64,000 bases of DNA from Candidatus Poribacteria bacterium (GTDB lineage: Bacteria > Poribacteria > WGA-4E > WGA-3G). The position numbers were made by a program, and so were the translations under genes. The stretch lies in the NCBI GenBank assembly GCA_022821965.1, contig JAJECN010000049.1, forward strand, positions 1-64,000. The letters are read 5' to 3'. The notes under the pieces are model-generated. The model was not told the origin of the DNA. It saw only the letters and a list, made by a program, of their open reading frames with translations, and made no database searches. Shown here piece by piece: positions 37,964-50,034 of this stretch. Each line of letters starts with the position of its first letter. Position 1 is the first letter of the stretch.

Positions 37964-38179
37964 ATGGGTGGAATCGGCGGAATGGAGATATTTATAATCC
38001 TTGTGGCTGCACTTGTCATTTTCGGACCGAAAAAGTTGCCGGAAATGGGACGTTCGCTTGGAAAGGCTATCCGAGAATTTAAGAGTGCTGGTAACGATCT
38101 CCAGGATGAATTGACAAAAGCAGCAAATGAAATAGATAAAGAAAAAGATCCAAACATCAAGCCTCCGAACCCCTCTTAA
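37964..38179 (+). CDS. tatA: Twin-arginine translocase subunit TatA/TatE
   Basis: ATG 37964 follows AAAGGAGGGATAAAGAC. The frame's upstream extension to 37835 spans the promoter and is not coding. 71 residues: a short N-terminal transmembrane helix (MEIFIILVAALVIFG, about 7-21), the hinge FGPKKLPEMGRSLG, then an amphipathic helix and an acidic/basic tail. TatA oligomers form the channel for folded proteins carrying RR signals. It is followed 26 bp later by tatC, and no separate tatB is present, the minimal TatAC arrangement. Confidence 0.92.
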   Translation: MGGIGGMEIFIILVAALVIFGPKKLPEMGRSLGKAIREFKSAGNDLQDELTKAANEIDKEKDPNIKPPNPS

Positions 38180-38205
38180 TCACGAATCTCGCGACGGGAC
38201 GCACT

Positions 38206-39027
38206 ATGGAATCTAACGAAGTTGCAATGACCTTCTGGGAACATCTTGAGGAGCTCCGGCGGCGAATTATTATCTCTGCTATCGCAATCGCCGTTTTTAC
38301 GGTGTTATGTTTATCTTTTAGTGGACCCATTGAGAAGGTTGTTATGTTCCCGTTGGGGACTTCGATGAATACACTGATTGCGAACGCTATTGATGCCACA
38401 GTGGGTTCTGAGGGGTCAACGTTAGGTTTTTTCGCAATCGCTTTGCGTGCTGGAACCTCCAGCGTCAACGCTGAGCTCATGAAAGTCGGTCCCTTAGAAG
38501 GTATCATGGCATACCTGAAATTGGGGATTACTGCCGGTATTTTGCTGGCACTACCGATAATCATTTATCAGGCTTGGGCATTCATTTTTCCGGCGTTGAA
38601 TCGTGAGGAGCGGCGATTCGCCGTGCCGCTTTTTCTAATTATCGTCGTGTTTTTCACCATCGGCACTGTTTTCGCCTATTTTATTGTTGTACCTGTAATC
38701 TTACATTTCTCTGCACAACTGTTCCCACAGATGCCGAATAGATGGGATTTGGAAAATTATATAAACCTTGTAACGAAGTTAATCTTAGGATTCGGTATCG
38801 CGTTTGAGTTGCCAATAGTAATGGCATTTCTGTCCCGGATCGGTGTGATTGACGCACGGGGCTTCCGTGAAAAACAGAACTATGCGTTGTTGGGGATCTG
38901 TGTGATGTCAGCCCTATTGACCCCTGCAGATCCGTGGTCAATGCTGCTGATGGCAATACCACTCTTTCTTTTATATCAACTCGGTATTTTCTTCGCTTAC
39001 CTCGTTGAAAAGGAGTCTGAAATATAA
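38206..39027 (+). CDS. tatC: Twin-arginine translocase subunit TatC
   Basis: 273 residues beginning MESNEVAMTFWEHLEELRRRIIIS, the family's cytoplasmic N-terminus with H-L-x-E-L-R-x-R for RR-signal recognition. It has six membrane helices and the conserved blocks YQAWAFIFPALNREERR and FGIAFELPIVMAFLSRIGV. A longer-than-usual first periplasmic loop (about residues 45-105) is present, as in several non-proteobacterial TatC. The stop codon TAA overlaps the ATG of the next gene by one base. Confidence 0.93.
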   Translation: MESNEVAMTFWEHLEELRRRIIISAIAIAVFTVLCLSFSGPIEKVVMFPLGTSMNTLIANAIDATVGSEGSTLGFFAIALRAGTSSVNAELMKVGPLEGIMAYLKLGITAGILLALPIIIYQAWAFIFPALNREERRFAVPLFLIIVVFFTIGTVFAYFIVVPVILHFSAQLFPQMPNRWDLENYINLVTKLILGFGIAFELPIVMAFLSRIGVIDARGFREKQNYALLGICVMSALLTPADPWSMLLMAIPLFLLYQLGIFFAYLVEKESEI

Positions 39028-39800
39028 TGGCTAAGGAGCCTTTACAGCAACAACTCGCTTTGCTCTATCAGTTACAAACGCGCGACCAAGAACTCTTGTC
39101 AATGCAAGAGAAACTTCAAACTATCCCGCGTCAGATTGAACAATTGGCGGCGGAGGTCCAGCGGTATGAGGAAGATATTGAAGCAAAATCAGCAGAGCTC
39201 GCGGAGACAGAAAGAGTGCAGCGGTCCAAGAACGCTGAGATTGAAATGAACAGTGTTCAACGCGAAAAGTATAGAGACGAACAGCGAACTGTCACCTCAA
39301 ACGAAGCATATACCGCCTTGGAACGACAAATCGAATTTCTTGATGAGCAAGACGGAGCAGCTGAGGACGTTATATTGACTCTTATGGAAGAGAGCGACCG
39401 TCTGAAGGAAGAATTGACGGAACTGGAAGTTGAGATCAACAAGGAAAAAGAGAAAACGGCTGCCGAAACTGAACAACTTCAACAAGAACTGCACGCCTTA
39501 AAAGCTGGAAGAGATGAGAAGTTAAAACAGCGGAAAGCGTTTCTTCCGAAAGTTGACAAGGAACTCAGAGACGAATACCACCGCTGGATGAAGGCGCAGC
39601 TTGCAGCCCGATCGAGTGCCGTGCGAACACAAGCCGGTTTCGTCGCCTTGGAGGAGAATGGCACCTGTGGCAGCTGCCGTATTGCTATTCAACCGCAGAC
39701 GCTCAAAGAGGCTCAAAAGTATGAGAAGCAGGTTTACTGTTCAAGTTGTAAAAGGCTACTCTACATCGAGCCTGCCGAATCTGATGCTGAATCCTCATAG
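39027..39800 (+). CDS. Coiled-coil protein with C4-type zinc ribbon (DUF164 family)
   Basis: 257 residues: a long coiled coil (about 1-185; QLYQLQTRDQELLSMQEKL and later K/E-rich heptads) followed by the zinc ribbon NGTCGSCRIAIQP...VYCSSCKRLLY (Cys pairs at about 213/216 and 237/240). Members of this widespread family are thought to bind nucleic acids or act in secretion/flagellar contexts; its role here is unknown. It starts on the last base of the tatC stop, so it is translationally coupled to the tat operon. Confidence 0.85.
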   Translation: MAKEPLQQQLALLYQLQTRDQELLSMQEKLQTIPRQIEQLAAEVQRYEEDIEAKSAELAETERVQRSKNAEIEMNSVQREKYRDEQRTVTSNEAYTALERQIEFLDEQDGAAEDVILTLMEESDRLKEELTELEVEINKEKEKTAAETEQLQQELHALKAGRDEKLKQRKAFLPKVDKELRDEYHRWMKAQLAARSSAVRTQAGFVALEENGTCGSCRIAIQPQTLKEAQKYEKQVYCSSCKRLLYIEPAESDAESS

Positions 39801-39840
39801 GGTGGGTATACATCTACAGGTGAGGATTGAAATCTACCGC

Positions 39841-39866
39841 TTTGCTGATTGCTGATAACTGACGAC
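39841..39866. repeat. Dispersed TTGCTGATTGCTGATAACTG repeat
   Basis: TTTGCTGATTGCTGATAACTGACGAC lies in the gap before the cupin gene and matches the family at 13285, 33421 and 47308 (reversed). Confidence 0.4.
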
Positions 39867-39905
39867 TATAACAACATATATCTAAACAGGAGGCATTCAC
39901 AACCA

Positions 39906-40232
39906 ATGCCCTTTTTTGTTATTGATGAGCAACCCGAAAAGCAGGTTTTTGAAGGAGCAAGTATTCGGACACTTCACGGCGAAAAACTGATGATGTCCTT
40001 TGTGAACCTACAACCCCATAGTGTCGTTGCCGAACATAGCCATCCCCATGAACAGATGGGAATGGTACTTGAGGGAACATTTGAGCTCTCCATTGATGGA
40101 GACTCCCGGATACTCAAAAAGGGTGACGCTTACCTTATCCCTTCCAATGTGAAGCACAGCGCGAAGGCTTTTGAAGAGCCTGCTGTCGCACTTGATATCT
40201 TTAGTCCGCCACGCGAAGATTATAAATCATGA
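39906..40232 (+). CDS. Cupin-domain protein
   Basis: ATG 39906 with AGGAGG 11 bases upstream; 108 residues. A single conserved-barrel cupin: motif 1 HSVVAEHSHPHEQMGMVLEG (metal-binding His/His/Glu-type ligands) and motif 2 KKGDAYLIPSNVKHS. Small cupins of this kind bind a metal and act in sugar or aromatic metabolism, or as sensors. Its ATGA end overlaps pgeF by four bases, so the two genes are coupled. Confidence 0.87.
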   Translation: MPFFVIDEQPEKQVFEGASIRTLHGEKLMMSFVNLQPHSVVAEHSHPHEQMGMVLEGTFELSIDGDSRILKKGDAYLIPSNVKHSAKAFEEPAVALDIFSPPREDYKS

Positions 40233-40984
40233 AGTTGTATCGCCCGATTCAGGAACTTCAAATGACCGACGTTGTCACTGCTGGTATTAGTCTACGCCAT
40301 GGTGGTGTTAGTCGTGCCCCTTATACGTCCTTGAATCTTGCTGAGCATGTCGGTGATGATGAGAGTGCCGTTGCAGCTAATAGGGATATGCTCTTTCAAC
40401 AAGCCAATTTAAAGAATCTACACTATTGCTGTCAAATTCATAGTGCTTCCGTCATAGATATAGATAACGGGGCAGGAACGATACCAGAGGATCCCCCGGA
40501 AGCAGATGCACTTGTTTCTACCGATCGCGAAACTGCTTTAGGCATTTTTACTGCGGATTGCGTCCCTATTTTCATTTTAGATCACGCGACCCCTGCTATC
40601 GGTATCGCGCACGCTGGCTGGAGGGGTACCTTTGCCCGAATTGCCGTAAATACGCTCGCACAAATGAAAGCGAGTTTCGGAACTCTTGCTACAAACTGTC
40701 AGATTCATTTGGGTCCCTCTATCCAAAAATGTTGCTATACGGTTAGCACGGAGTTGCTCGATCAATTTGCAGAACGTTTCGGTAGCACCGTACACGATGG
40801 CAAAAACCTGAGTCTGCAAGATGCCAACCTTAACCAATTGGTTGAAGCAGGCTTACCTCCCACCTCCATTTCAGTGTCTCCACTTTGCACCGCTTGTCGC
40901 ACGGATCTCTTTTATTCACATCGGGCTGAGAACGGACGAACAGGTAGGATGCTCTCATTTATCCAACTTAATGCCGGGAGCTGA
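40229..40984 (+). CDS. pgeF: Peptidoglycan editing factor PgeF (YfiH/laccase-domain family)
   Basis: 251 residues of the multicopper-polyphenol-oxidase/YfiH family. It has the zinc-binding residues in HSASV, TADCVPIFI and HAGWRGTF, plus IHLGPSIQKCCYTV and the end CTACRTDLFYSHRAENGRTGRMLSFI. Homologues remove mis-incorporated residues from peptidoglycan precursors or act on purine nucleosides. It overlaps the cupin gene by four bases. Confidence 0.9.
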   Translation: MKLYRPIQELQMTDVVTAGISLRHGGVSRAPYTSLNLAEHVGDDESAVAANRDMLFQQANLKNLHYCCQIHSASVIDIDNGAGTIPEDPPEADALVSTDRETALGIFTADCVPIFILDHATPAIGIAHAGWRGTFARIAVNTLAQMKASFGTLATNCQIHLGPSIQKCCYTVSTELLDQFAERFGSTVHDGKNLSLQDANLNQLVEAGLPPTSISVSPLCTACRTDLFYSHRAENGRTGRMLSFIQLNAGS

Positions 40985-41088
40985 AGTCTATCCTATAACT
41001 ACTGGCTTGTTGGACGCGATCTCCACTTCGATTTTATCTATTCCAATCCCGTTTTCCGTTGGAAGAACAAATCCTCGAAATGAAAAAT

Positions 41089-41117
41089 TTGCATCTCGTC
41101 TAAAAATATGGTATTAT
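41089..41117 (+). promoter_or_regulatory. Sigma70-like promoter before the 41278-46681 gene run
   Basis: TTGCAT (41089-41094), 17 bases, TATTAT (41112-41117), in the 293-bp gap after pgeF. The leader to ATG 41278 is about 155 bases. Confidence 0.5.
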
Positions 41118-41277
41118 TAATGACAAAATACAGCGATCTTATCGTATTGCCTACCGCTGTAACTTCGCTGGATTTGTAACGTTATTTTCCTTGAGACATT
41201 CCAACTTGTTTAGGTGCAATAATTCCTTCAAATTCGTTATTGGGCGGTGATTTGACACATAACTGGAGAAATTGAAG

Positions 41278-41556
41278 ATGCGCGTGCTCTTCGCAATATT
41301 ATCAGTTATTACAGGCATCATCGGGTTTGTTTTTATTGTGGGGGGTATTCGGCATCCTTCAAAATATCAGAAGGTTTTGTCGGAAAACGTGAGCGCGGCA
41401 CAGGTCACGCAGGTTTATACGGAAGCAACGCATGAGATAGTCGTTGGTATTGGTGTTGTTAGTATAGCCGTTCTAATCGCCGTTATCGGTATATTCTTTC
41501 ACGTGAGCAAGCCTTTAAGTCCAGATACGCAATCAACAGACGATCCTGAAAACTGA
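41278..41556 (+). CDS. Small two-helix membrane protein
   Basis: ATG 41278 with GGAG ten bases upstream is preferred to TTG 41272. About 92 residues with two hydrophobic helices, residues 3-24 (VLFAILSVITGIIGFVFIVG) and about 62-83 (VGIGVVSIAVLIAVIGIFF), joined by a soluble segment that may be extracytoplasmic (RHPSKYQKVLSENVSAAQVTQVYTEATHE). Family not recognised. It opens the yggS-proC-yggT run. Confidence 0.6.
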   Translation: MRVLFAILSVITGIIGFVFIVGGIRHPSKYQKVLSENVSAAQVTQVYTEATHEIVVGIGVVSIAVLIAVIGIFFHVSKPLSPDTQSTDDPEN

Positions 41557-41629
41557 CGAGTCCTTTGATTTGAACCAATTTTGGAATTAAGATGCTTCGG
41601 GGTTGCAGGACTAAATGGGGACGTGCTAA

Positions 41630-42358
41630 GTGAACTCGATTGTCGATAATCTCTCCAGTATCAATGAACGTATTGCCAACGCGGCTGAACGGAGTAGACG
41701 TACACCGGATTCAATAAAACTCGTTGCTGTCACAAAGGGGCGTTCAGTACCAGAAATTCAGGCGGTTCTCGCCGCCGGTGCTACAGACATCGGGGAAAAC
41801 CGAGTGCAAGAGGCGCGACAGAAGTACACGCCAGTCAATGCATTCATAGATGCTTCAGGTGCTGCTTCCAGTGATAAAACCTACCGTTGGCATCTCGTTG
41901 GACATTTGCAGAGAAATAAGGTTAAAACCGCATTAGAGATGTTTTCGCTGATTCATTCAGTTGACAGTTTGCGGCTTTTGGCAGAAATAGCACGCCGGTC
42001 TGAAGAACGATCACAACAGACCGATGTTTTAATTCAGGTAAATACAACTCGCGAGGAAAGTAAATACGGATTGGCAGCAGATGATTTACTTCAGTTCATT
42101 GAAGACGCACAAGCATATCCGGCGGCGCGCATCGTTGGATTGATGACAATGGGACAGTTAACGCCTTCACCGGACGCGAACCGTCCCGCTTTTGCTTTGC
42201 TGAGATCGCTTGCTGAAAAGATAGAAATCCAAAAGTTCCCCAGGGTTACCATGCAATATCTCTCGATGGGAATGACGAATGATTTTGAGGTTGCCGTTCA
42301 AGAGGGGGCGAATCTCGTTAGAATTGGCAGGGCGATCTTCGAGTTTTCAAAGGAATAA
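41630..42358 (+). CDS. yggS: YggS-family PLP-binding protein
   Basis: 242 residues from GTG 41630. A PLP-binding TIM barrel of the YggS/PROSC family: SIKLVAVTKGRSVPEIQAVL with the PLP Lys, IGENRVQEARQKY, WHLVGHLQRNKVKTAL, IHSVDSLRLL, LIQVNTTREESKYG and the final LSMGMTNDFEVAVQEGANLVRIGRAIF. It maintains vitamin B6 homeostasis. It is followed by proC and yggT, the order seen in many bacteria. Confidence 0.93.
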   Translation: MNSIVDNLSSINERIANAAERSRRTPDSIKLVAVTKGRSVPEIQAVLAAGATDIGENRVQEARQKYTPVNAFIDASGAASSDKTYRWHLVGHLQRNKVKTALEMFSLIHSVDSLRLLAEIARRSEERSQQTDVLIQVNTTREESKYGLAADDLLQFIEDAQAYPAARIVGLMTMGQLTPSPDANRPAFALLRSLAEKIEIQKFPRVTMQYLSMGMTNDFEVAVQEGANLVRIGRAIFEFSKE

Positions 42359-42366
42359 TTAAAAAT

Positions 42367-43167
42367 ATGCGATTAGGTGTAATAGGCGTTGGAAAGATGG
42401 GAGGCATTATCGTTCGGAGTATTGCAGACACGGTGTTTCCCGCAAAGCAGATTTGGGTTACTGACCTTGATAGTGCCCTTGTAAAGCAGCTCTGCGATGA
42501 AAAAGGGACTAACAGCACAAGCGATATTGCTGCCTTGGTGGAAGAGGCGCAGGTTATTCTCTGTGCTGTCACGCCTGGGGCAGTCCCATACGTCTTGCCA
42601 CAGGTCGCGCGCACCTTATCGACATCGCAATGGCTCATCAGTATAGCTGCCGGTGTTACGACCGCGACGCTTGAATCCTATTTTGATACCGCACCGCCGA
42701 TTGTTCGGGTAATGCCAAATATCTCAGCATCGGTAGGTGCTGCGATCTCAGTGCTAACGGCTGGTAGTGCGGTGAATCCAGAACACCTTGAAATAGCACA
42801 GCGAATTTTTGATGCCTGCGGGACCTCCTTGGTTATGGATGAACACCATCTTGATGCTGTCACCGGGGTGAGTGGCAGCGGCCCCGCCTATGTTGCGCTT
42901 TTCATTGAAGCGTTGGCGGATGCGGGTGTTCATGTCGGTTTACCTCGTGCCGATGCGCAAAAACTCGCCACCCATACAGTTTTAGGTGCAGCTACGATGT
43001 TGGCTGAAACACAAGAACATCCAGCAGTCCTCAAAAATCGTGTTACCACACCAGGCGGAACAACTGCAGCCGGGCTTCATGCATTAGAACAGGGTGGTTT
43101 GCGGGCAACTCTTACGGAAGCCATCCTCGCTGCAACTGCGCGAGCAAAAGAACTCGGTAACGCATAG
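42367..43167 (+). CDS. proC: Pyrroline-5-carboxylate reductase
   Basis: 266 residues. Rossmann start MRLGVIGVGKMGGIIVRSI, middle ILCAVTPGAVPYVLPQVA and IVRVMPNISASVGAAISVL, and the family signature GSGPAYVALFIEALADAGVHVGLPRADA...TTPGGTTAAGLHALEQGG (about 176-245). It catalyses the last step of proline synthesis using NAD(P)H. It starts eight bases after yggS. Confidence 0.95.
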   Translation: MRLGVIGVGKMGGIIVRSIADTVFPAKQIWVTDLDSALVKQLCDEKGTNSTSDIAALVEEAQVILCAVTPGAVPYVLPQVARTLSTSQWLISIAAGVTTATLESYFDTAPPIVRVMPNISASVGAAISVLTAGSAVNPEHLEIAQRIFDACGTSLVMDEHHLDAVTGVSGSGPAYVALFIEALADAGVHVGLPRADAQKLATHTVLGAATMLAETQEHPAVLKNRVTTPGGTTAAGLHALEQGGLRATLTEAILAATARAKELGNA

Positions 43168-43192
43168 TTTTGTGAGGTCCTTTTAAAAAATT

Positions 43193-43456
43193 ATGGAAAT
43201 GCTTGCTTGGTTTGTTAGTGAAGTGCTTGAAATTTACATCATAGTGGTTTTCGCGAATACGCTGCTGTCTTGGTTCGTTTTTAGCACACAAAATTCAGTC
43301 GTTAGGCAACTATACTGGTGGACGGGTCGTATCGTAGATCCTGTTTTAAATCCGATTCGGAATGTGATTGGACCGATGACTCGGAATTTTGGTATTGACA
43401 TTTCACCTTTTGTGCTGATTATTCTGTTACAGTTTATATCTTGGGCACTCTGGTAA
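43193..43456 (+). CDS. yggT: YggT-family membrane protein
   Basis: 87 residues with two hydrophobic segments (about 6-27 and 62-85), connected by WFVFSTQNSVVRQLYWWTGRIVDPVLNPIRNVI, the YggT/YlmG signature (DPxLxPIR). Family members influence membrane or division-site organisation. It follows proC by 25 bases. Confidence 0.9.
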   Translation: MEMLAWFVSEVLEIYIIVVFANTLLSWFVFSTQNSVVRQLYWWTGRIVDPVLNPIRNVIGPMTRNFGIDISPFVLIILLQFISWALW

Positions 43457-43459
43457 TCA

Positions 43460-43591
43460 GTGGATAGGTGTGCTAATCTGTTTGAAGTCGTAAAAAATTG
43501 GGAGGCGGCTGGCACAAAAAAGCATAATCTTAGTAGCGATCCGTTTGTCGAACTGACGAGCGATCCAGAAACAACAGTCCGAAAAATATGA
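43460..43591 (+). CDS. Possible 43-residue protein coupled to the IleRS-like gene
   Basis: GTG 43460 to TGA 43589-43591 encodes a hydrophilic peptide (NLFEVVKNWEAAGTKKHNLS in the middle). Its stop overlaps the ATG of the next gene as ATGA, a typical coupling arrangement, and it begins four bases past the yggT stop, so a coding gap-filler is plausible. It is not recognised as the yggU or divIVA genes often found here. The ribosome site is weak. Confidence 0.4.
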   Translation: MDRCANLFEVVKNWEAAGTKKHNLSSDPFVELTSDPETTVRKI

Positions 43592-46197
43592 AGAAACGAA
43601 ATTCCACCACAAAAAGCACGACGCGTAAACGGGGTAAAACCACGAGGTCAAGCGAGAAACCTCAGTTGGCAGACCGTAGAAAAGAAAAAGCTGTTCTGGA
43701 AACTTGGTCGAATGTCAATGTATATCCCCTCGTGACGAAGAAAGCCAGTGCTGTAGGGAACAAAACAGCGAAAGGGAGTGCTGCGCAGCGACACGATTCC
43801 TCTCAAACGGAAACCTACGTCCTCCGCGAGATGCCCGCCTCAGTTCATGCCCTCACTCTCAATACCCTTTGTAGAAAAGTTTGTCAAGACATCTTCCTTA
43901 AAGCAGCGTTAATGCAAGGACATCAAGTCATATACGTACCCGCATGGGAGACCTATCCTCTCTGGATTGAGGAGTCCGTCATTGCTGCCGCCAAATCTAA
44001 AGAACCAATCAAATTATCAGTTCTTCGGAAACGTTGCCGGGCAAGACACAAACAGGAATTAGAGGTTCAGAAGGAAAAATTCCATCAACTCGGTATCTTT
44101 GCGGATTGGGATGCTTCCCAGAAAACCCTCGAATCTCGACAGGAAGCGAGACTCATCGCCCTTATTAGTCGGCTCCGAGACTCTGACTACTTACACGATC
44201 TACCGCAACTGAGTCCGTGGTGTCCTAAGTGCACTGTCCCAATTAATGAGGCGAACCTCGTACAAATGCCTACACGCGCTTTGAATAGTTACGTAAAATT
44301 TCCTTTCACGCTTGGGTTAGAGGAATTTGGCATTGACGTTTTCTTTTGTCTCCAGATGCCACATCTTTGGGAAATAGCAGGGATTGTTGAACTCGGGATT
44401 ACCGACAATGTTACGTATTTGCTTACCCAATGGAAGGATGAATATCTCCTTTTTTCGGAACCGCAGTTTGAACATTTTATGAAACACCTTCCAAAGAGGC
44501 AGTCCAGACCGAAACTTATCAAAGAAATCAAAGCCTCTGAACTTGCGCAATGTGCTGTAGCGCATCCGCTCTTTCCATCAAAAGACTTGAAGATCAGACT
44601 GATTCCTGAGACCCTGGTGACAAATACTACCCACGATAAATTAACATCCTCCTTAGAATCCGGCGTTATGCCCCTAAATCCGGCGCATCATCAACCCAGT
44701 TACAACATCGCCCAAGCGTTAGAAATGAATGCTACGCCTGTTTTTGATGAAACTGGAAGATTCACTGAGGAAGCAGGGCAATTGTGTGGCTTGTACCTCT
44801 TTGATGCCGAGAACTTTATTGTTCCGCAGTTGGAAAGATGTGGATACCTCCTCAAGACACGGAACGACGAAATGCCTGAACCTCACTGTCCTCGCTGTCA
44901 GGAACTGGCTGTTTTTCGACCGTGTTCAAAGTGGGTGTTCTCTATCTCCGAAAACCACGCCACTGTCCAGTTACTCAACGCCCAAGAGTATTGGGACAAT
45001 TACGGCGACACCGAGCATAAAGGTATTCAAGATGTACAAAACGCTGTTCTCAATTTCGGAGGCTTGCCAGTTTCAGCGCAACGCCAGTGGGGGATGCCGC
45101 TTCCGATTCTCCTCTGCGACCAGTGTGATCAACCGCTCACCGATAAGAATACACTCAATGCAATCCGGAATTCTATACAGCGGGGATTTGAATTTTGGTT
45201 CCGATTGAGTGTTGAGGAGCTTTTACCGGCGGATACACGATGTCTGAACTGTAATTCAAGTGACTTTCGTAAAGAGGCTACCCTCATTGATAGCCATTTT
45301 GCCAATTTGCTTCAGATCATTGACAACTCTGACTTCAAGAAACCACTCGGTGGACACACCAGTGTCATGTTTGTCCCGCAGACGGATATAGCCGATTCTA
45401 AATGGACAGAATGGTTGGCAGAAATCAGTGTCATCTCTGCTGCACTTAGCAGAAGTCGCCCAATTAAAGAAAGTCAACCCTTTAAGCAACTAAAGCTTAA
45501 CACAATGCCAGAAGTTGACAGCGAAATAGACGTGGAAGACGCATTTCTCAACAAATATCCGGCTGATGTGGTTCGCCTCGTCGCAATAACTCCCAATGTC
45601 GGGACGGAACAGGTGGACCAAAAACAACTTGAAAAACTCGCAAAAGATTACTCGGTTCAATACCAGCTGCTCCAGGGACTATTGGAAAATATAAGCGATT
45701 GCCTCTCCGATTTTCTACAAAGTCAAAACAAGGCGGAGCTGAAAGGTTCATCGGCTACGGGCAAAATTGCTTCAACAGATTCATTGGCAATCACCGTTAC
45801 CGCTCAGTTTTTACAGGAAGTGCAGCAGGCGTATCAGGAGGCAAATTTTTGTGAAATGTGGACAATATTAACGGATTTCTGTGAGAGTGATCTTCGTTTT
45901 TACGTCGGTACTGTAAAATCATGTCCTGCTGAAACGCGACACGCAGCACAAGCTACCTTGTCGCAAATCGGGACTGCACTCCTGCAACGCTTCGCACCCT
46001 TGACTCCTTTTTTCGCGGAACATTTCTATCCGCTCATTTCTACAGAAGGTGTGGTCGGTAACCATAGCATTTTTCAGAAAAATTGGCACCTACTCTCGCC
46101 TGTTGATGGGCAAACCTTGCACATTTCCGATATAGAAACGGATGATGCAAAAGCGGAATGGGAGGTGCTCAAAAACACCTATGATGCAAAGTCCTAA
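43588..46197 (+). CDS. Isoleucyl-tRNA synthetase-like pseudoenzyme (HIGH and KMSKS lost)
   Basis: 869 residues. The backbone is IleRS: LCRKVCQDIFLKAALMQGH (after the HIGH site), WCPKC (Cys 212/215), FDETGRFTEEAGQLCGLYLF, CPRC (434/437), RQWGMPLPILLCDQC (510/513), ELLPADTRCLNCNSSDFRKE (552/555) and an anticodon-binding helical domain. Catalytic signatures are gone. HIGH reads H87-A-L-T, the editing motif WTTTPWTLPAN becomes LQMPHLWEIAG, GHGEEDY becomes AHHQPSYN, and the KMSKS region reads KLNTMPEV. The first ~35 residues are a Lys/Arg/Ser/Thr extension. All four CxxC pairs and the frame remain, which argues for a retained protein. It occupies the usual ileS place directly before lspA. It could bind tRNA or regulate; it should not aminoacylate by the normal mechanism. 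A working IleRS must be elsewhere. Confidence 0.8.
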   Translation: MKKRNSTTKSTTRKRGKTTRSSEKPQLADRRKEKAVLETWSNVNVYPLVTKKASAVGNKTAKGSAAQRHDSSQTETYVLREMPASVHALTLNTLCRKVCQDIFLKAALMQGHQVIYVPAWETYPLWIEESVIAAAKSKEPIKLSVLRKRCRARHKQELEVQKEKFHQLGIFADWDASQKTLESRQEARLIALISRLRDSDYLHDLPQLSPWCPKCTVPINEANLVQMPTRALNSYVKFPFTLGLEEFGIDVFFCLQMPHLWEIAGIVELGITDNVTYLLTQWKDEYLLFSEPQFEHFMKHLPKRQSRPKLIKEIKASELAQCAVAHPLFPSKDLKIRLIPETLVTNTTHDKLTSSLESGVMPLNPAHHQPSYNIAQALEMNATPVFDETGRFTEEAGQLCGLYLFDAENFIVPQLERCGYLLKTRNDEMPEPHCPRCQELAVFRPCSKWVFSISENHATVQLLNAQEYWDNYGDTEHKGIQDVQNAVLNFGGLPVSAQRQWGMPLPILLCDQCDQPLTDKNTLNAIRNSIQRGFEFWFRLSVEELLPADTRCLNCNSSDFRKEATLIDSHFANLLQIIDNSDFKKPLGGHTSVMFVPQTDIADSKWTEWLAEISVISAALSRSRPIKESQPFKQLKLNTMPEVDSEIDVEDAFLNKYPADVVRLVAITPNVGTEQVDQKQLEKLAKDYSVQYQLLQGLLENISDCLSDFLQSQNKAELKGSSATGKIASTDSLAITVTAQFLQEVQQAYQEANFCEMWTILTDFCESDLRFYVGTVKSCPAETRHAAQATLSQIGTALLQRFAPLTPFFAEHFYPLISTEGVVGNHSIFQKNWHLLSPVDGQTLHISDIETDDAKAEWEVLKNTYDAKS

Positions 46198-46681
46198 GAA
46201 AGGTACATGGCAAACGCTCCTACCCTTAATTGGCGTAGCGATTCCAGTGTTAATACTGGATTGGGTGAGCAAATGGCTCGTACAAACCTATATAACTTAC
46301 GTTACAGAGGTAATTCCGATTATCCCGGGTTTTTTCAACCTTCGGCACGATAGAAATCCAGGGGCAGCTTTTGGCGTACTTTCCGGACATAGGTTTTTGC
46401 TGATTCTCATTACGATTGTTGCTTTAGTGTTCATTTTCGCCTATTATCTTCGTTTCAGGGAGAGCCGTTGGATGCAAGTCGCACTCGGGTTTTTACTTGG
46501 AGGTGCCGTTGGAAACTTTATTGATCGGCTCTATTTGGGTGAGGTCGTCGATTTTCTCCAGTTCGGTATAGCCAGCAAAGGGCTCTTTTGGCCAACCTTC
46601 AACGTCGCTGATATTTCTGTGTGTATTGGTGCAGGCATGCTAATTGTTTACCTTTTCAGGAACCGTGATCAAGCCCAGTAA
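46181..46681 (+). CDS. lspA: Lipoprotein signal peptidase (signal peptidase II)
   Basis: ATG 46181, with GGAGG 15 bases upstream, fits the family start better than ATG 46142 (56 bases into the preceding gene). About 166 residues, four membrane helices. Catalytic aspartates lie in NFIDRLYLGEVVDF and FNVADISVCIG; RHDRNPGAAFGVLSG is the conserved NxGAAFG motif. It cleaves lipoprotein precursors after lipid attachment; a candidate substrate is the lipoprotein at 52908. It overlaps the IleRS-like gene end by 17 bases. Confidence 0.92.
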   Translation: MMQSPKKGTWQTLLPLIGVAIPVLILDWVSKWLVQTYITYVTEVIPIIPGFFNLRHDRNPGAAFGVLSGHRFLLILITIVALVFIFAYYLRFRESRWMQVALGFLLGGAVGNFIDRLYLGEVVDFLQFGIASKGLFWPTFNVADISVCIGAGMLIVYLFRNRDQAQ

Positions 46682-46730
46682 ACTTAACGCCATGAGATAT
46701 AATACAATTTTTTGTATAGGAGGGTAATTC

Positions 46731-47300
46731 GTGTGTAAATTGAGTGTGCAATTGTTCCTATTGAGTATAGCTCTTCTTTCTATCGTAGCAGTTCCACACG
46801 CGACAGCGCAAATTCATACAGAACATTCGCCAGACGAAACAGAACACGAAGAACCAGAGGTATACAGTGAAAGTGCTTTACGTCGGTTTGAGATCATCAC
46901 GTTGAGTTCCCTACCGTTTACGGCTATTCACAGTTACGCGATAATGCGTGGTGTGAAAATGTTTCGTGAGAATCAATTCGCTCCTGAGTTGACACCGCAG
47001 GATTATCGTATTATTGGCATCGGTGCTGTCTCGTTATCTTTATTCATTGGTGTATGGGATTGGTGGCATACCCGCCATGTTGATCGGTCGGCACCACGTG
47101 TGCCAGAACCACAAACACCCCCACCCGTTGAAGATGAGGAACCCGTGGAGGGGACACTCGCGAGACTGTCCGAAGCGAGTCCGTATACAGCGAGATATAG
47201 AGGTAGGTCTTTGGAAGACTCCATAAATAAGGAACTGAATGGTTGGGCAAATGAACGCCCTGCCGGTTTCGCTGTACCGTTCATTCAAATTCGCTTCTAA
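46731..47300 (+). CDS. Hypothetical exported protein with one internal membrane helix
   Basis: 189 residues from GTG 46731, placed eight bases after AGGAGGG. Signal peptide about 1-27 (VQLFLLSIALLSIVAVPHATA). Then an acidic His/Glu-rich segment (HTEHSPDETEHEEPEV), a region ALRRFEIITLSSLPFTAIHSY and a hydrophobic helix about 101-116 (YRIIGIGAVSLSLFIGVWDW). The C-terminus has a Pro-rich stretch (RVPEPQTPPPVEDEEP) and ends FAVPFIQIRF. Family not recognised; cell-envelope location is likely. It stands between lspA and fmt. Confidence 0.55.
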   Translation: MCKLSVQLFLLSIALLSIVAVPHATAQIHTEHSPDETEHEEPEVYSESALRRFEIITLSSLPFTAIHSYAIMRGVKMFRENQFAPELTPQDYRIIGIGAVSLSLFIGVWDWWHTRHVDRSAPRVPEPQTPPPVEDEEPVEGTLARLSEASPYTARYRGRSLEDSINKELNGWANERPAGFAVPFIQIRF

Positions 47301-47307
47301 GATAGCC

Positions 47308-47338
47308 ATCAGCAATTAGCAGTCAGTTATCAGCAAGA
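47308..47338. repeat. Dispersed intergenic repeat, reverse orientation
   Basis: CATCAGCAATTAGCAGTCAGTTATCAGCAAG is the reverse complement of the GCTGATAACTGACTGCTGAT-type family seen at 13285, 33421 and 39841. Confidence 0.4.
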
Positions 47339-47429
47339 GAACTCTGATTTATCAGAAAATCTCTTTGCTGAAGATTTCCGACGGTTTCCGGTAGCCATTC
47401 TTCTGAAAGCCTACAGTCGAGTTAAAAAA

Positions 47430-48371
47430 ATGCGCATTCTCTTTATGGGTACCAGCGAGTTTGCTGTTCCAGCACTCAAAGCGCTTATCTCCCACAAATT
47501 TGAACTCATAGGGCTTGTTACACAACCTGACCGACCGAGCGGACGCGGGAAACGCCTCAGTCCGCCACCTGTCAAAGTCATCGCTGCAGAACACAATATA
47601 CCGGTTTATCAACCTGAAAAGGTAAGAGAACCAGATTTTGTAAAAATCCTTAAACGTCTCACACCAGATGTAAGTGTTGTCGCAGCCTTCGGCCAATTGT
47701 TGCCCCAGACCGTTTTGGATGTTCCACCGTGTGGGACTATCAATTTGCATCCCTCTCTTCTTCCAAAGTATCGCGGTGCCGCCCCGATTCAGTGGGCATT
47801 GATGAATGGTGAAGCCGAAACGGGTGTGACACTTATGTTATTAGATGCAGGCGAGGATACCGGTGATATTATTTCTGCAGACCGAGTCCCGATCCGAGAT
47901 GAGGATACCGCTTTTACATTGACGGAACAGTTAGCACAACTCGGCGCAGATCAACTCGTCCGATGTCTCTCCGATATGCCAAATGAGGGACCACCATCGG
48001 CGATTCCACAGAACCACGCCGAAGCAACCCACGCCCCGCGTCTGACAAAGGAGACGGGACACATTGATTGGAATCGACCAGCGACGACAATTCACAATCT
48101 TGTCAGAGGCACAGCAATCTGGCCCGGTGCTTATACTTTCTTTCGAGAGGAACTTCGACTCAAGGTTATCCGTTGTCAACCACTCCCGCTGACACTTGCT
48201 GCACAACCGGGGACGCTTGAAATAGTTGACAGACAGAAACTCATCGTTGTTACAGGGGAAGGAACGCTCCAGTTATTAGAAATTCAACCTGCGACCAAAA
48301 AAGTTATGGAAGCGTCCGATTTTATCAACGGTTATCAATTGCAAACGGGCGAGCAATTTTTGACATTATAG
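47430..48371 (+). CDS. fmt: Methionyl-tRNA formyltransferase
   Basis: 313 residues. MRILFMGTSEFAVPALKALI at the start, PDRPSGRGKRLSPPPVK, INLHPSLLPKYRGAAPIQWALMNGE with the formyl-folate and catalytic region (Asn/His/Asp), TGVTLMLLDAGEDTGDII, and a C-terminal OB-like tRNA-binding domain (from about 207, LTKETGHIDWNRPATTIHNLVRGTAIWPGA). It formylates initiator Met-tRNA. It is followed two bases later by the PASTA gene; fmt-PASTA-rpe proximity occurs in other bacteria. Confidence 0.95.
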   Translation: MRILFMGTSEFAVPALKALISHKFELIGLVTQPDRPSGRGKRLSPPPVKVIAAEHNIPVYQPEKVREPDFVKILKRLTPDVSVVAAFGQLLPQTVLDVPPCGTINLHPSLLPKYRGAAPIQWALMNGEAETGVTLMLLDAGEDTGDIISADRVPIRDEDTAFTLTEQLAQLGADQLVRCLSDMPNEGPPSAIPQNHAEATHAPRLTKETGHIDWNRPATTIHNLVRGTAIWPGAYTFFREELRLKVIRCQPLPLTLAAQPGTLEIVDRQKLIVVTGEGTLQLLEIQPATKKVMEASDFINGYQLQTGEQFLTL

Positions 48372-48373
48372 TT

Positions 48374-49351
48374 ATGAATAGCCTTAATGATACCCTATTT
48401 GCGATATTCAAAGTTTCGTTATACTTCCTAATTATCTTCGGTATAATTGCCGTGTTAGCCATTTTCGTTATTATTCCGACTTGGGTCAGGACTGAGGAGG
48501 TGCTTGTCCCAAATATTACCGGCAAAACCTACTATGAAGCCGTGCGGATCCTTGATAATGTAGGTCTTCGACCGGATAAGACGATTCAGGAGGCGAGTAG
48601 TGACGCACCCAAGGGTGAAATCGTCTCACAAAATCCACAGGCGAACTTTAGAATAAAATCGTATCAGCCGGTTAAGATTACAGTCAGCATCGGATCGGAA
48701 TTAGCTCCTGTTCCGTCTGTCATTGGAAAATTGAGGGAGGATGCGCTTGATACCCTCACAACTGCAGGTTTTCGTCCAAATCGGATTGCTTTTGTCCATT
48801 CCGAAAATTATCAGCAAGATACCGTCATCGCGCAAACCCCGCCAGAAGGGGGTGGCCAACGGCGCGGAAGTCCGGTTAATCTTTTGATAAGCCGCGGACC
48901 CACACCACAATTCATTGAACTTCCGAACTTCCAGGGTCAGCCTGCTGCTGATGTCCTCGTCGAACTCGAATCGGTTGGACTAAACGTTGAAACCAAATAT
49001 AGTTCTCACCCCAGAATCCCTGAAGGCGCAATTATTGCCCACGAACCGCCAGGGGACGTGATGATAAAAACTGGGGACTTAATCCTCCTTGAAATTAGTG
49101 GTGTGCAAGGATCGACGGGGGATATCGGAAGATTACTACCTTTCGAGCACTCGGTCGGTGAAGGAGGAGAGATCTCTCGTCAGGTTAGAATTGTTGTGAT
49201 TGATGACTACGGTGAACGCACTGTCGTCAATCAACGCTACGCCCCCGGCACAGTGATTAATTTGGAACAGAAAGGGTTCCGCGTTTTCGGCAAAACACGG
49301 GTGCTCGTCTATGAAGATGGCGAAAAGCTGCCTGAAATCCTTTATAGATAG
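48374..49351 (+). CDS. Membrane-anchored PASTA-domain protein
   Basis: 325 residues. One N-terminal transmembrane helix (about 12-36, VSLYFLIIFGIIAVLAIFVIIP) then three PASTA domains, about 40-103 (VPNITGKTYYEAVRILDNVG), 104-173 and 174-240, and an unassigned C-terminal part to RQVRIVVIDDYGERTVVNQR and the end. PASTA domains bind peptidoglycan fragments and usually sit on kinases or PBPs; here no kinase or transpeptidase domain is attached. It is probably a cell-wall-binding envelope protein, translated with fmt. Confidence 0.88.
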   Translation: MNSLNDTLFAIFKVSLYFLIIFGIIAVLAIFVIIPTWVRTEEVLVPNITGKTYYEAVRILDNVGLRPDKTIQEASSDAPKGEIVSQNPQANFRIKSYQPVKITVSIGSELAPVPSVIGKLREDALDTLTTAGFRPNRIAFVHSENYQQDTVIAQTPPEGGGQRRGSPVNLLISRGPTPQFIELPNFQGQPAADVLVELESVGLNVETKYSSHPRIPEGAIIAHEPPGDVMIKTGDLILLEISGVQGSTGDIGRLLPFEHSVGEGGEISRQVRIVVIDDYGERTVVNQRYAPGTVINLEQKGFRVFGKTRVLVYEDGEKLPEILYR

Positions 49352-49374
49352 GACTCAATCGAAGGAGTGTCCCA

Positions 49375-50034
49375 ATTCTTAACCCTAAAATTGCGCCCTC
49401 ATTGCTCGCTGCAGATTTTAGTCGCCTTGGTCAAGAGGTGAGTCGGATCGTTGATGCTGGGGCGGATATGCTTCACTTCGATGTGATGGACGGTGAATTT
49501 GTCCCTAACTTTGGTATTAGTCCACCCTTTATTGCTGCTGTTCGTCAAATAACCCAAGTCCCATTTGATGTCCACATCATGGTGACGCATCCACTCCGTT
49601 ATATCAGTGCGCTTGTCACCGCAGGTGCGGATCTCATTACGTTTCACATCGAAAGTGATGATGCACCGGATGACGTGATTTCGGCGATTAAAGCGCAGGG
49701 CGTTAAGCCGGGTTTAGCACTCTCACCGAAAACGCCGATCTCTGCAGTCACGCCGTATCTTTCAGATATTGACTTAATCCTACCGATGAGTGTTGAACCG
49801 GGATTTGGGGGGCAAGCCTTTCAGCCGAGCACCCTTGAAAAGATAGCGGAATTGCGGCAAATCATCCAGGAGTTGGATCTACAACTTGACATCTCCGTTG
49901 ACGGTGGTGTAACGACAGAAATTGCCCCTCTCGCTATTGAGCAAGGGGCAACAATTCTCGTCGCAGGAACGGCTATCTTCCGCAGTCAGCAACCAGAAGC
50001 AGTTATTGAACAACTTCGCATGGGGGCAATCTAA
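49375..50034 (+). CDS. rpe: Ribulose-phosphate 3-epimerase, probably starting at ATT
   Basis: The protein is a typical RPE barrel: PSLLAADFSRLGQEV, DMLHFDVMDGEFVPNFGISP, PFDVHIMVTHP, LALSPKTPI, ILPMSVEPGFGGQAF and ISVDGGVTTEIAPLAIEQGA. The first common start codon is TTG 49402, which would remove the conserved N-terminal strand K-I-A-P-S. In-frame ATT at 49375, seven bases after AAGGAG, restores it (ILNPKIAPSLLAAD, 219 residues). No ATG, GTG or TTG in frame lies between. It interconverts ribulose-5-P and xylulose-5-P. Confidence 0.9.
   Translation: MLNPKIAPSLLAADFSRLGQEVSRIVDAGADMLHFDVMDGEFVPNFGISPPFIAAVRQITQVPFDVHIMVTHPLRYISALVTAGADLITFHIESDDAPDDVISAIKAQGVKPGLALSPKTPISAVTPYLSDIDLILPMSVEPGFGGQAFQPSTLEKIAELRQIIQELDLQLDISVDGGVTTEIAPLAIEQGATILVAGTAIFRSQQPEAVIEQLRMGAI

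Follow-up and report, generated by a model that had tools for sequence, protein, structure and literature searches.

A Poribacterial relative of isoleucyl-tRNA synthetase, very likely a pseudoenzyme kept under purifying selection at the ileS locus

Non-charging synthetase relatives and the Poribacterial locus

Pseudoenzymes derived from aminoacyl-tRNA synthetases (aaRS) are already known, among them HisZ, SLIMP and, as a partly inactive class I case, LeuRS-I (PMC9437257). The dead synthetase relatives treated in that work belong mostly to class II, or to class I while keeping tRNA binding or adenylation. HisZ is a bacterial aaRS relative that does not charge tRNA and has a regulatory role (PMC9437257). 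SLIMP, a conserved relative of mitochondrial SerRS in insects, has an ablated active site and occurs beside the active enzyme, and LeuRS-I of the Sulfolobaceae is a class Ia relative that no longer charges tRNA, likewise found beside an active one (PMC9437257). An IleRS homologue with a role outside translation, SbzA, has also been described (PMC12945691). As for IleRS2, a GXHH signature is reported to confer mupirocin hyper-resistance on this enzyme with mildly changed activity (PMC10485003).

The protein analysed here, pIleRS, resembles each of these systems in part. Unlike HisZ and SLIMP, it is of class I origin; moreover, the partner of HisZ is known (HisG), whereas no partner of pIleRS is known. 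SLIMP is eukaryotic, has retained the arm that binds tRNA and forms a dimer with the active subunit, while the tRNA-reading part of pIleRS is relaxed. LeuRS-I binds tRNA(Leu) and makes leucyl-adenylate (PMC9437257), but pIleRS lacks the adenylation motifs, and SbzA is modelled to use the old active-site residues His61, His64 and Lys608, none of which is present in pIleRS. With bacterial IleRS1 (TIGR00392; S. aureus 1ffy, P. megaterium 8c9e) pIleRS shares its lineage, its position before lspA and the order of Rossmann, CP1 and anticodon-binding domains; in contrast to IleRS1, it has lost all catalytic and editing motifs, carries a shortened KMSKS loop, scores far below the family cut-off and, in the main class, lacks the C-terminal domain. 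The novelty of pIleRS lies in its pattern of constraint, its class I origin and its single origin across a phylum. No paper linking Poribacteria and IleRS was found in the open-access literature searched.

The source genome is a Candidatus Poribacteria MAG (G000; 5.69 Mb, 62 contigs, 95% complete), from which a stretch of 64,000 nucleotides, referred to as the window, was analysed. The locus is composed as follows (window coordinates).

41630-42358, + strand: yggS, conserved neighbour upstream of pIleRS
42367-43167, + strand: proC, conserved neighbour upstream of pIleRS
43193-43456, + strand: yggT, conserved neighbour upstream of pIleRS
43588-46197, + strand: pIleRS open reading frame, IleRS1-derived pseudo-synthetase, 869 aa, ATG start, no internal stop
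43588-43809, + strand: N-terminal extension, residues 1-74, with a basic start (10 of the first 25 residues are K/R); evolves fast and is absent from other families
43810-44202, + strand: residues 75-205, former Rossmann core (first half), without HIGH and WDxHGLP; dN/dS about 0.06
44203-44922, + strand: residues 206-445, CP1 domain, formerly for editing; the fold persists without the threonine-rich motif and the editing Asp
44221-44232, + strand: CxxC C212/C215, first half of putative zinc site A
44887-44898, + strand: CxxC C434/C437, second half of putative zinc site A
45115-45126, + strand: CxxC C510/C513, putative zinc site B (first half), present in all 69 members covering it
45241-45252, + strand: CxxC C552/C555, putative zinc site B (second half), present in all 69 members covering it
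45253-45507, + strand: residues 556-640, former Rossmann core (second half), lacking WFDSG and near-invariant in the genus (FRKEATLID...KESQPFKQL)
45493-45537, + strand: former position of the KMSKS loop, shortened and unconserved
45790-46101, + strand: residues 735-838, remnant of the anticodon-binding helical domain, under relaxed constraint; there is no C-terminal tRNA-binding/zinc-ribbon region
46142 (or slightly later)-46681, + strand: lspA, lipoprotein signal peptidase, conserved neighbour overlapping the 3' end of pIleRS

Downstream of lspA, the interval 46731-47300 encodes a short protein of unknown function that is probably secreted or located in the membrane and is conserved at this position through the class.

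The match of pIleRS to the ileS model TIGR00392 (E 1.5e-61) reaches 208.7 bits and does not meet the cut-off of 621.4. The cut-offs of PF00133 (73.2 versus 22.7 bits) and of the anticodon-binding PF08264 (40.5 versus 25.1 bits) are passed, and the most similar chain of known structure is 1ffy, the S. aureus IleRS1 (E 6e-41). Together with the fold of CP1, the two Pfam matches satisfy the test for class Ia architecture, that is CP1 plus an anticodon-binding domain. No known RNA element, T-box included, was detected at gathering score in the region 38000-50000. Candidates for a pIleRS-specific promoter did not rise above chance, and terminator-like matches were few and unconvincing.

Lost motifs, retained cysteines and structure models

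Motifs were compared by alignment with E. coli IleRS. In the window protein, TLNT occupies the position of HIGH, WETYPLW that of WDCHGLP, MPHLW that of the threonine-rich TTTPW of CP1 and HFANL that of WFDSG, while the editing aspartate (Asp342) is replaced by serine and a shorter loop of unrelated sequence stands in place of the KMSKS loop. Across the family, neither histidine of HIGH was found in any of 67 full-length copies, no copy has KMSKS, and the combination of HIGH or GXHH with KMSKS is absent from the window protein and from every orthologue. The CP1 editing site fails its test as well, its threonines being gone in all copies and its Asp kept in only 14 of 67. Based on this loss of motifs, and in the absence of an activity assay, we infer that Ile-AMP synthesis, tRNA charging and Val-tRNA hydrolysis by the known mechanisms are not to be expected of pIleRS. 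Having failed the score, HIGH, KMSKS and editing-site tests, the protein is an IleRS1 by descent and not an IleRS by membership.

Of the 67 full-length orthologues, 65 retain all eight cysteines of the four CxxC pairs. The two exceptions (G037 and G040) have lost C215 and C437 together, one cysteine from each half of the same site, which is expected if C212, C215, C434 and C437 form one site. We take pIleRS to carry two Cys4 sites of the zinc type; metal binding is inferred from the pattern of cysteine conservation and has not been shown. Apart from these cysteines, the kept residues are mostly structural, comprising fold-defining Trp, Pro and Gly and a few Arg or Asp, and the few polar residues that are invariant across families are mostly structural or common to IleRS. 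The residues of the former active site are fixed within the genus and differ between families, so that the phylum as a whole shows no single new ligand pocket.

Most of what the original prediction had read from the sequence alone held. It placed an 869-codon frame at the ileS locus, after yggS-proC-yggT and before lspA, and counted four CxxC pairs, all of which was confirmed, as were the loss of KMSKS and the replacement of editing-site motifs. The IleRS architecture that it described is supported by the profile matches and the domain order. The loss of HIGH was confirmed too; the HALT assigned to it lies a few residues before the aligned TLNT, which changes nothing.

Structure prediction, proposed with the original prediction as a check, gave a mixed outcome. 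The AlphaFold2 models (12 sequences) were poor for both the full-length protein and the core (pLDDT 45 and 48, respectively). Since the Rossmann core was modelled with low confidence, no active-site geometry is claimed, and CP1 alone is usable. This domain was modelled confidently over its main part (block-mean pLDDT 76-92 in the core model) and superposes on IleRS editing domains of known structure with Z 15.4-15.6 and 3.3-3.8 Å. A Foldseek search with the full model ranked IleRS1 first; the global superposition was poor and was not used as evidence.

Active IleRS2, distribution and selection

An intact IleRS2 of 1048 aa, with KMSKS, TTTPW, WFDSG and HIGH in the GVHH form, is encoded on another contig of the source genome (C56). 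It is this enzyme, an IleRS2 of the GXHH kind (PMC10485003), that serves as the live IleRS of these genomes, and pIleRS branches apart from it. An IleRS2 with every motif was found in 48/48 Poribacteria genomes checked (G000:C56:23339-25852, L002; L108-L174). In six single-contig genomes the live IleRS and pIleRS lie on one contig, and an artefact of assembly or binning was therefore rejected.

Two further observations concern these active enzymes. The GVHH form, which is linked to mupirocin hyper-resistance, occurs in the IleRS2 of all 48 Poribacteria checked. Furthermore, the active IleRS of families f2 and f4 is apparently a mosaic (L119 from G041, L120 from G036, L127 from G044; compare L121 from G038, and L002). 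Its divergent catalytic core is 79-94% identical among the members themselves and 35-37% identical to the IleRS2 of the source genome, while the C-terminal domain of L119 and L120 is 60-62% identical to the resident Poribacterial IleRS2; the G038 enzyme (L121) combines a core of the f2/f4 type with another C-terminus. L119, L120, L121 and L127 carry AMHKS, EMHKS or PMHKS for KMSKS and FDCQGLW for WDxHGLP, together with GVHH and an intact TTTPW, and they seem to be the sole intact IleRS of their genomes.

Of 85 genomes of the phylum searched with a family profile, 75 yielded pIleRS at E 1e-100, as did 51 of the 56 of better quality. In addition to these 75, copies cut by contig ends adjoin lspA in G053 and in G061, the latter belonging to another class. 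The gene order proC-(yggT)-pIleRS-lspA holds down to 23-25% identity, including other families of the class. Where no profile match was obtained in G050, G055, G059, G060 and G068, the genomes are incomplete or, for G050, lspA was not found either. In three others (G036, G038 and G039), lspA directly follows yggT in an intact locus, representing clean secondary loss; hence pIleRS is not essential everywhere and some lineages can do without it. The G061 copy, which lacks KMSKS, still has a C-terminal zinc ribbon of the IleRS1 type, suggesting that loss of catalysis preceded loss of the C-terminal domain.

A tree of 40 proteins groups the pIleRS sequences without exception in one clade (SH-aLRT 95) that is sister to IleRS1 (99 for both together), and their branching resembles the taxonomy; this tree has long branches and was obtained by a quick search. 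Tree placement and synteny with the ileS-lspA locus together meet the test for descent from the IleRS1 lineage, and the tree gives pIleRS a single origin. Descent from IleRS2 or ValRS was rejected on the tree and the profile scores. One scan of named genomes returned close patterns only from Poribacteria; occurrence outside the phylum has not been properly tested.

Selection was assessed by pairwise Nei-Gojobori dN/dS within the genus, using only pairs of moderate dS because synonymous sites are saturated in distant pairs. For pIleRS the ratio ranges from 0.10 to 0.32 with a median of 0.14. Over the same 11 genomes, the medians are 0.153 for pIleRS, 0.090 for LspA, 0.070 for ProC and 0.056 for IleRS2. 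The two Rossmann halves of pIleRS give 0.056 and 0.051, against 0.023 and 0.036 in IleRS2, and CP1 gives 0.113 against 0.067. By contrast, the KMSKS region reaches 0.241 (0.051 in IleRS2), and the anticodon-binding domain, at 0.271 versus 0.060, is about 4.5 times more relaxed than its IleRS2 counterpart and is the most relaxed folded part of the protein. The dead core is thus constrained almost as strongly as a live one, whereas the parts that read the anticodon and close over ATP are relaxed. Active enzymes likewise show their lowest dN/dS in the core, and the domain pattern alone is no proof of a core function. No premature stop was found in pIleRS, against about 9-48 expected under neutral drift between single close pairs. 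Decay at the level of a strain was rejected on the phylum-wide distribution, the dN/dS values and the absence of stops.

Possible roles of pIleRS

We consider it very likely that pIleRS is a phylum-old pseudoenzyme kept under purifying selection rather than a product of strain decay. With its catalytic residues lost, purifying selection acting on it and an active counterpart present, it meets the test for an aaRS-derived pseudoenzyme, the lack of aminoacylation being inferred without an assay. The original prediction had favoured a new role over decay, and none of three results that would have refuted it was obtained: a second, intact IleRS is present, dN/dS is far below 1, and no homologue retains HIGH or KMSKS, their loss being phylum-wide.

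The account that we regard as likely overall is that of an ancient pseudoenzyme, in which IleRS1 was displaced by IleRS2 and kept for another job. In an ancestor of the Poribacteria, an IleRS2 would have taken over the charging of tRNA(Ile) from the bacterial-type ileS (IleRS1), the order of events being inferred; the catalytic and editing sites of IleRS1 would then have been lost, the protein being retained for a new and unknown task. More tentatively, and with less confidence than would make it our expectation, pIleRS may be a non-catalytic binding or scaffold protein acting through its remodelled former catalytic core, which may contact a protein partner, or RNA independently of the tRNA(Ile) anticodon. 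This role is inferred because the constrained part consists of the Rossmann core, the two Cys4 sites and the CP1 fold, while constraint is weak in the anticodon domain and the C-terminal tRNA domain has gone; there are no partner, expression or phenotype data. A bolder reading, for which the balance of evidence is still slightly unfavourable, is that a single conversion at the base of the phylum turned a class I synthetase into a non-catalytic protein working via its core and zinc sites and not via tRNA recognition. No class I precedent for such a use of core and zinc sites without tRNA recognition was found in the literature searched.

Among the alternatives, the original prediction had itself suggested tRNA binding or a partnership with the second IleRS. 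On this view pIleRS would bind tRNA(Ile) and help or regulate IleRS2 as a dead subunit, much as SLIMP, with its catalytic pocket ablated, supports charging by its active partner (PMC10570016). The descent of pIleRS from a tRNA(Ile)-binding protein, its recognisable anticodon-binding domain and its kept CP1 fold speak for it. However, the relaxation of the anticodon domain and the absence of the C-terminal domain argue against anticodon-reading binding of tRNA(Ile), leaving that suggestion less well supported, and IleRS2 looks self-sufficient, with all motifs in all genomes checked. Nor is there support for partnership in rate covariation, where the partial r of 0.22 with IleRS2 lies below the values for the neighbours ProC (0.47) and LspA (0.39), although the latter correlations may reflect the shared locus. 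Moreover, pIleRS persists in family f4, whose active IleRS has a divergent catalytic core of a different kind. In the absence of data on complex formation or tRNA binding, we judge a SLIMP-like role unlikely, yet not excluded.

New chemistry in the old pocket, for instance as an aminoacyl-tRNA-dependent transferase, would be in line with the existence of IleRS-derived transferases such as SbzA (PMC12945691) and with a dead core nearly as constrained within the genus as a live one. Nevertheless, it appears very unlikely, because the residues that SbzA is described as using, which belong to HIGH and KMSKS, have no counterpart in pIleRS; in addition, polar residues invariant between families are scarce and mostly structural or common to IleRS, and the neighbourhood is one of housekeeping and not of biosynthesis. 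A decaying relic kept only through translational coupling to lspA would be in keeping with the overlap of lspA with the 3' end of pIleRS in the genus and with the faster evolution of pIleRS relative to its neighbours. It is all but excluded by the domain-specific constraint, with a core dN/dS of 0.05, by cysteine pairs invariant over the phylum and by the survival of lspA without pIleRS in three genomes.

Under the favoured account of displacement and retention, pIleRS is a natural case of the fate of an old enzyme once a second takes its job. A full-length class I synthetase has lost all recognised chemistry and has kept its place at the ileS locus while a phylum diversified, with the strongest constraint in its dead core; core and tRNA-reading domain can thus be kept or relaxed separately. 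For annotation, proteins of this type match ileS models at an ileS locus and should not be counted as IleRS.

Separately, a plasmid of Variovorax sp. PBL-H6 (L132, 392-2935) encodes an 847-aa protein that resembles IleRS1, reads KYSKS and TTTPY and sits on a long branch. This protein is annotated merely as a class I tRNA ligase family protein and is possibly a specialised second IleRS.
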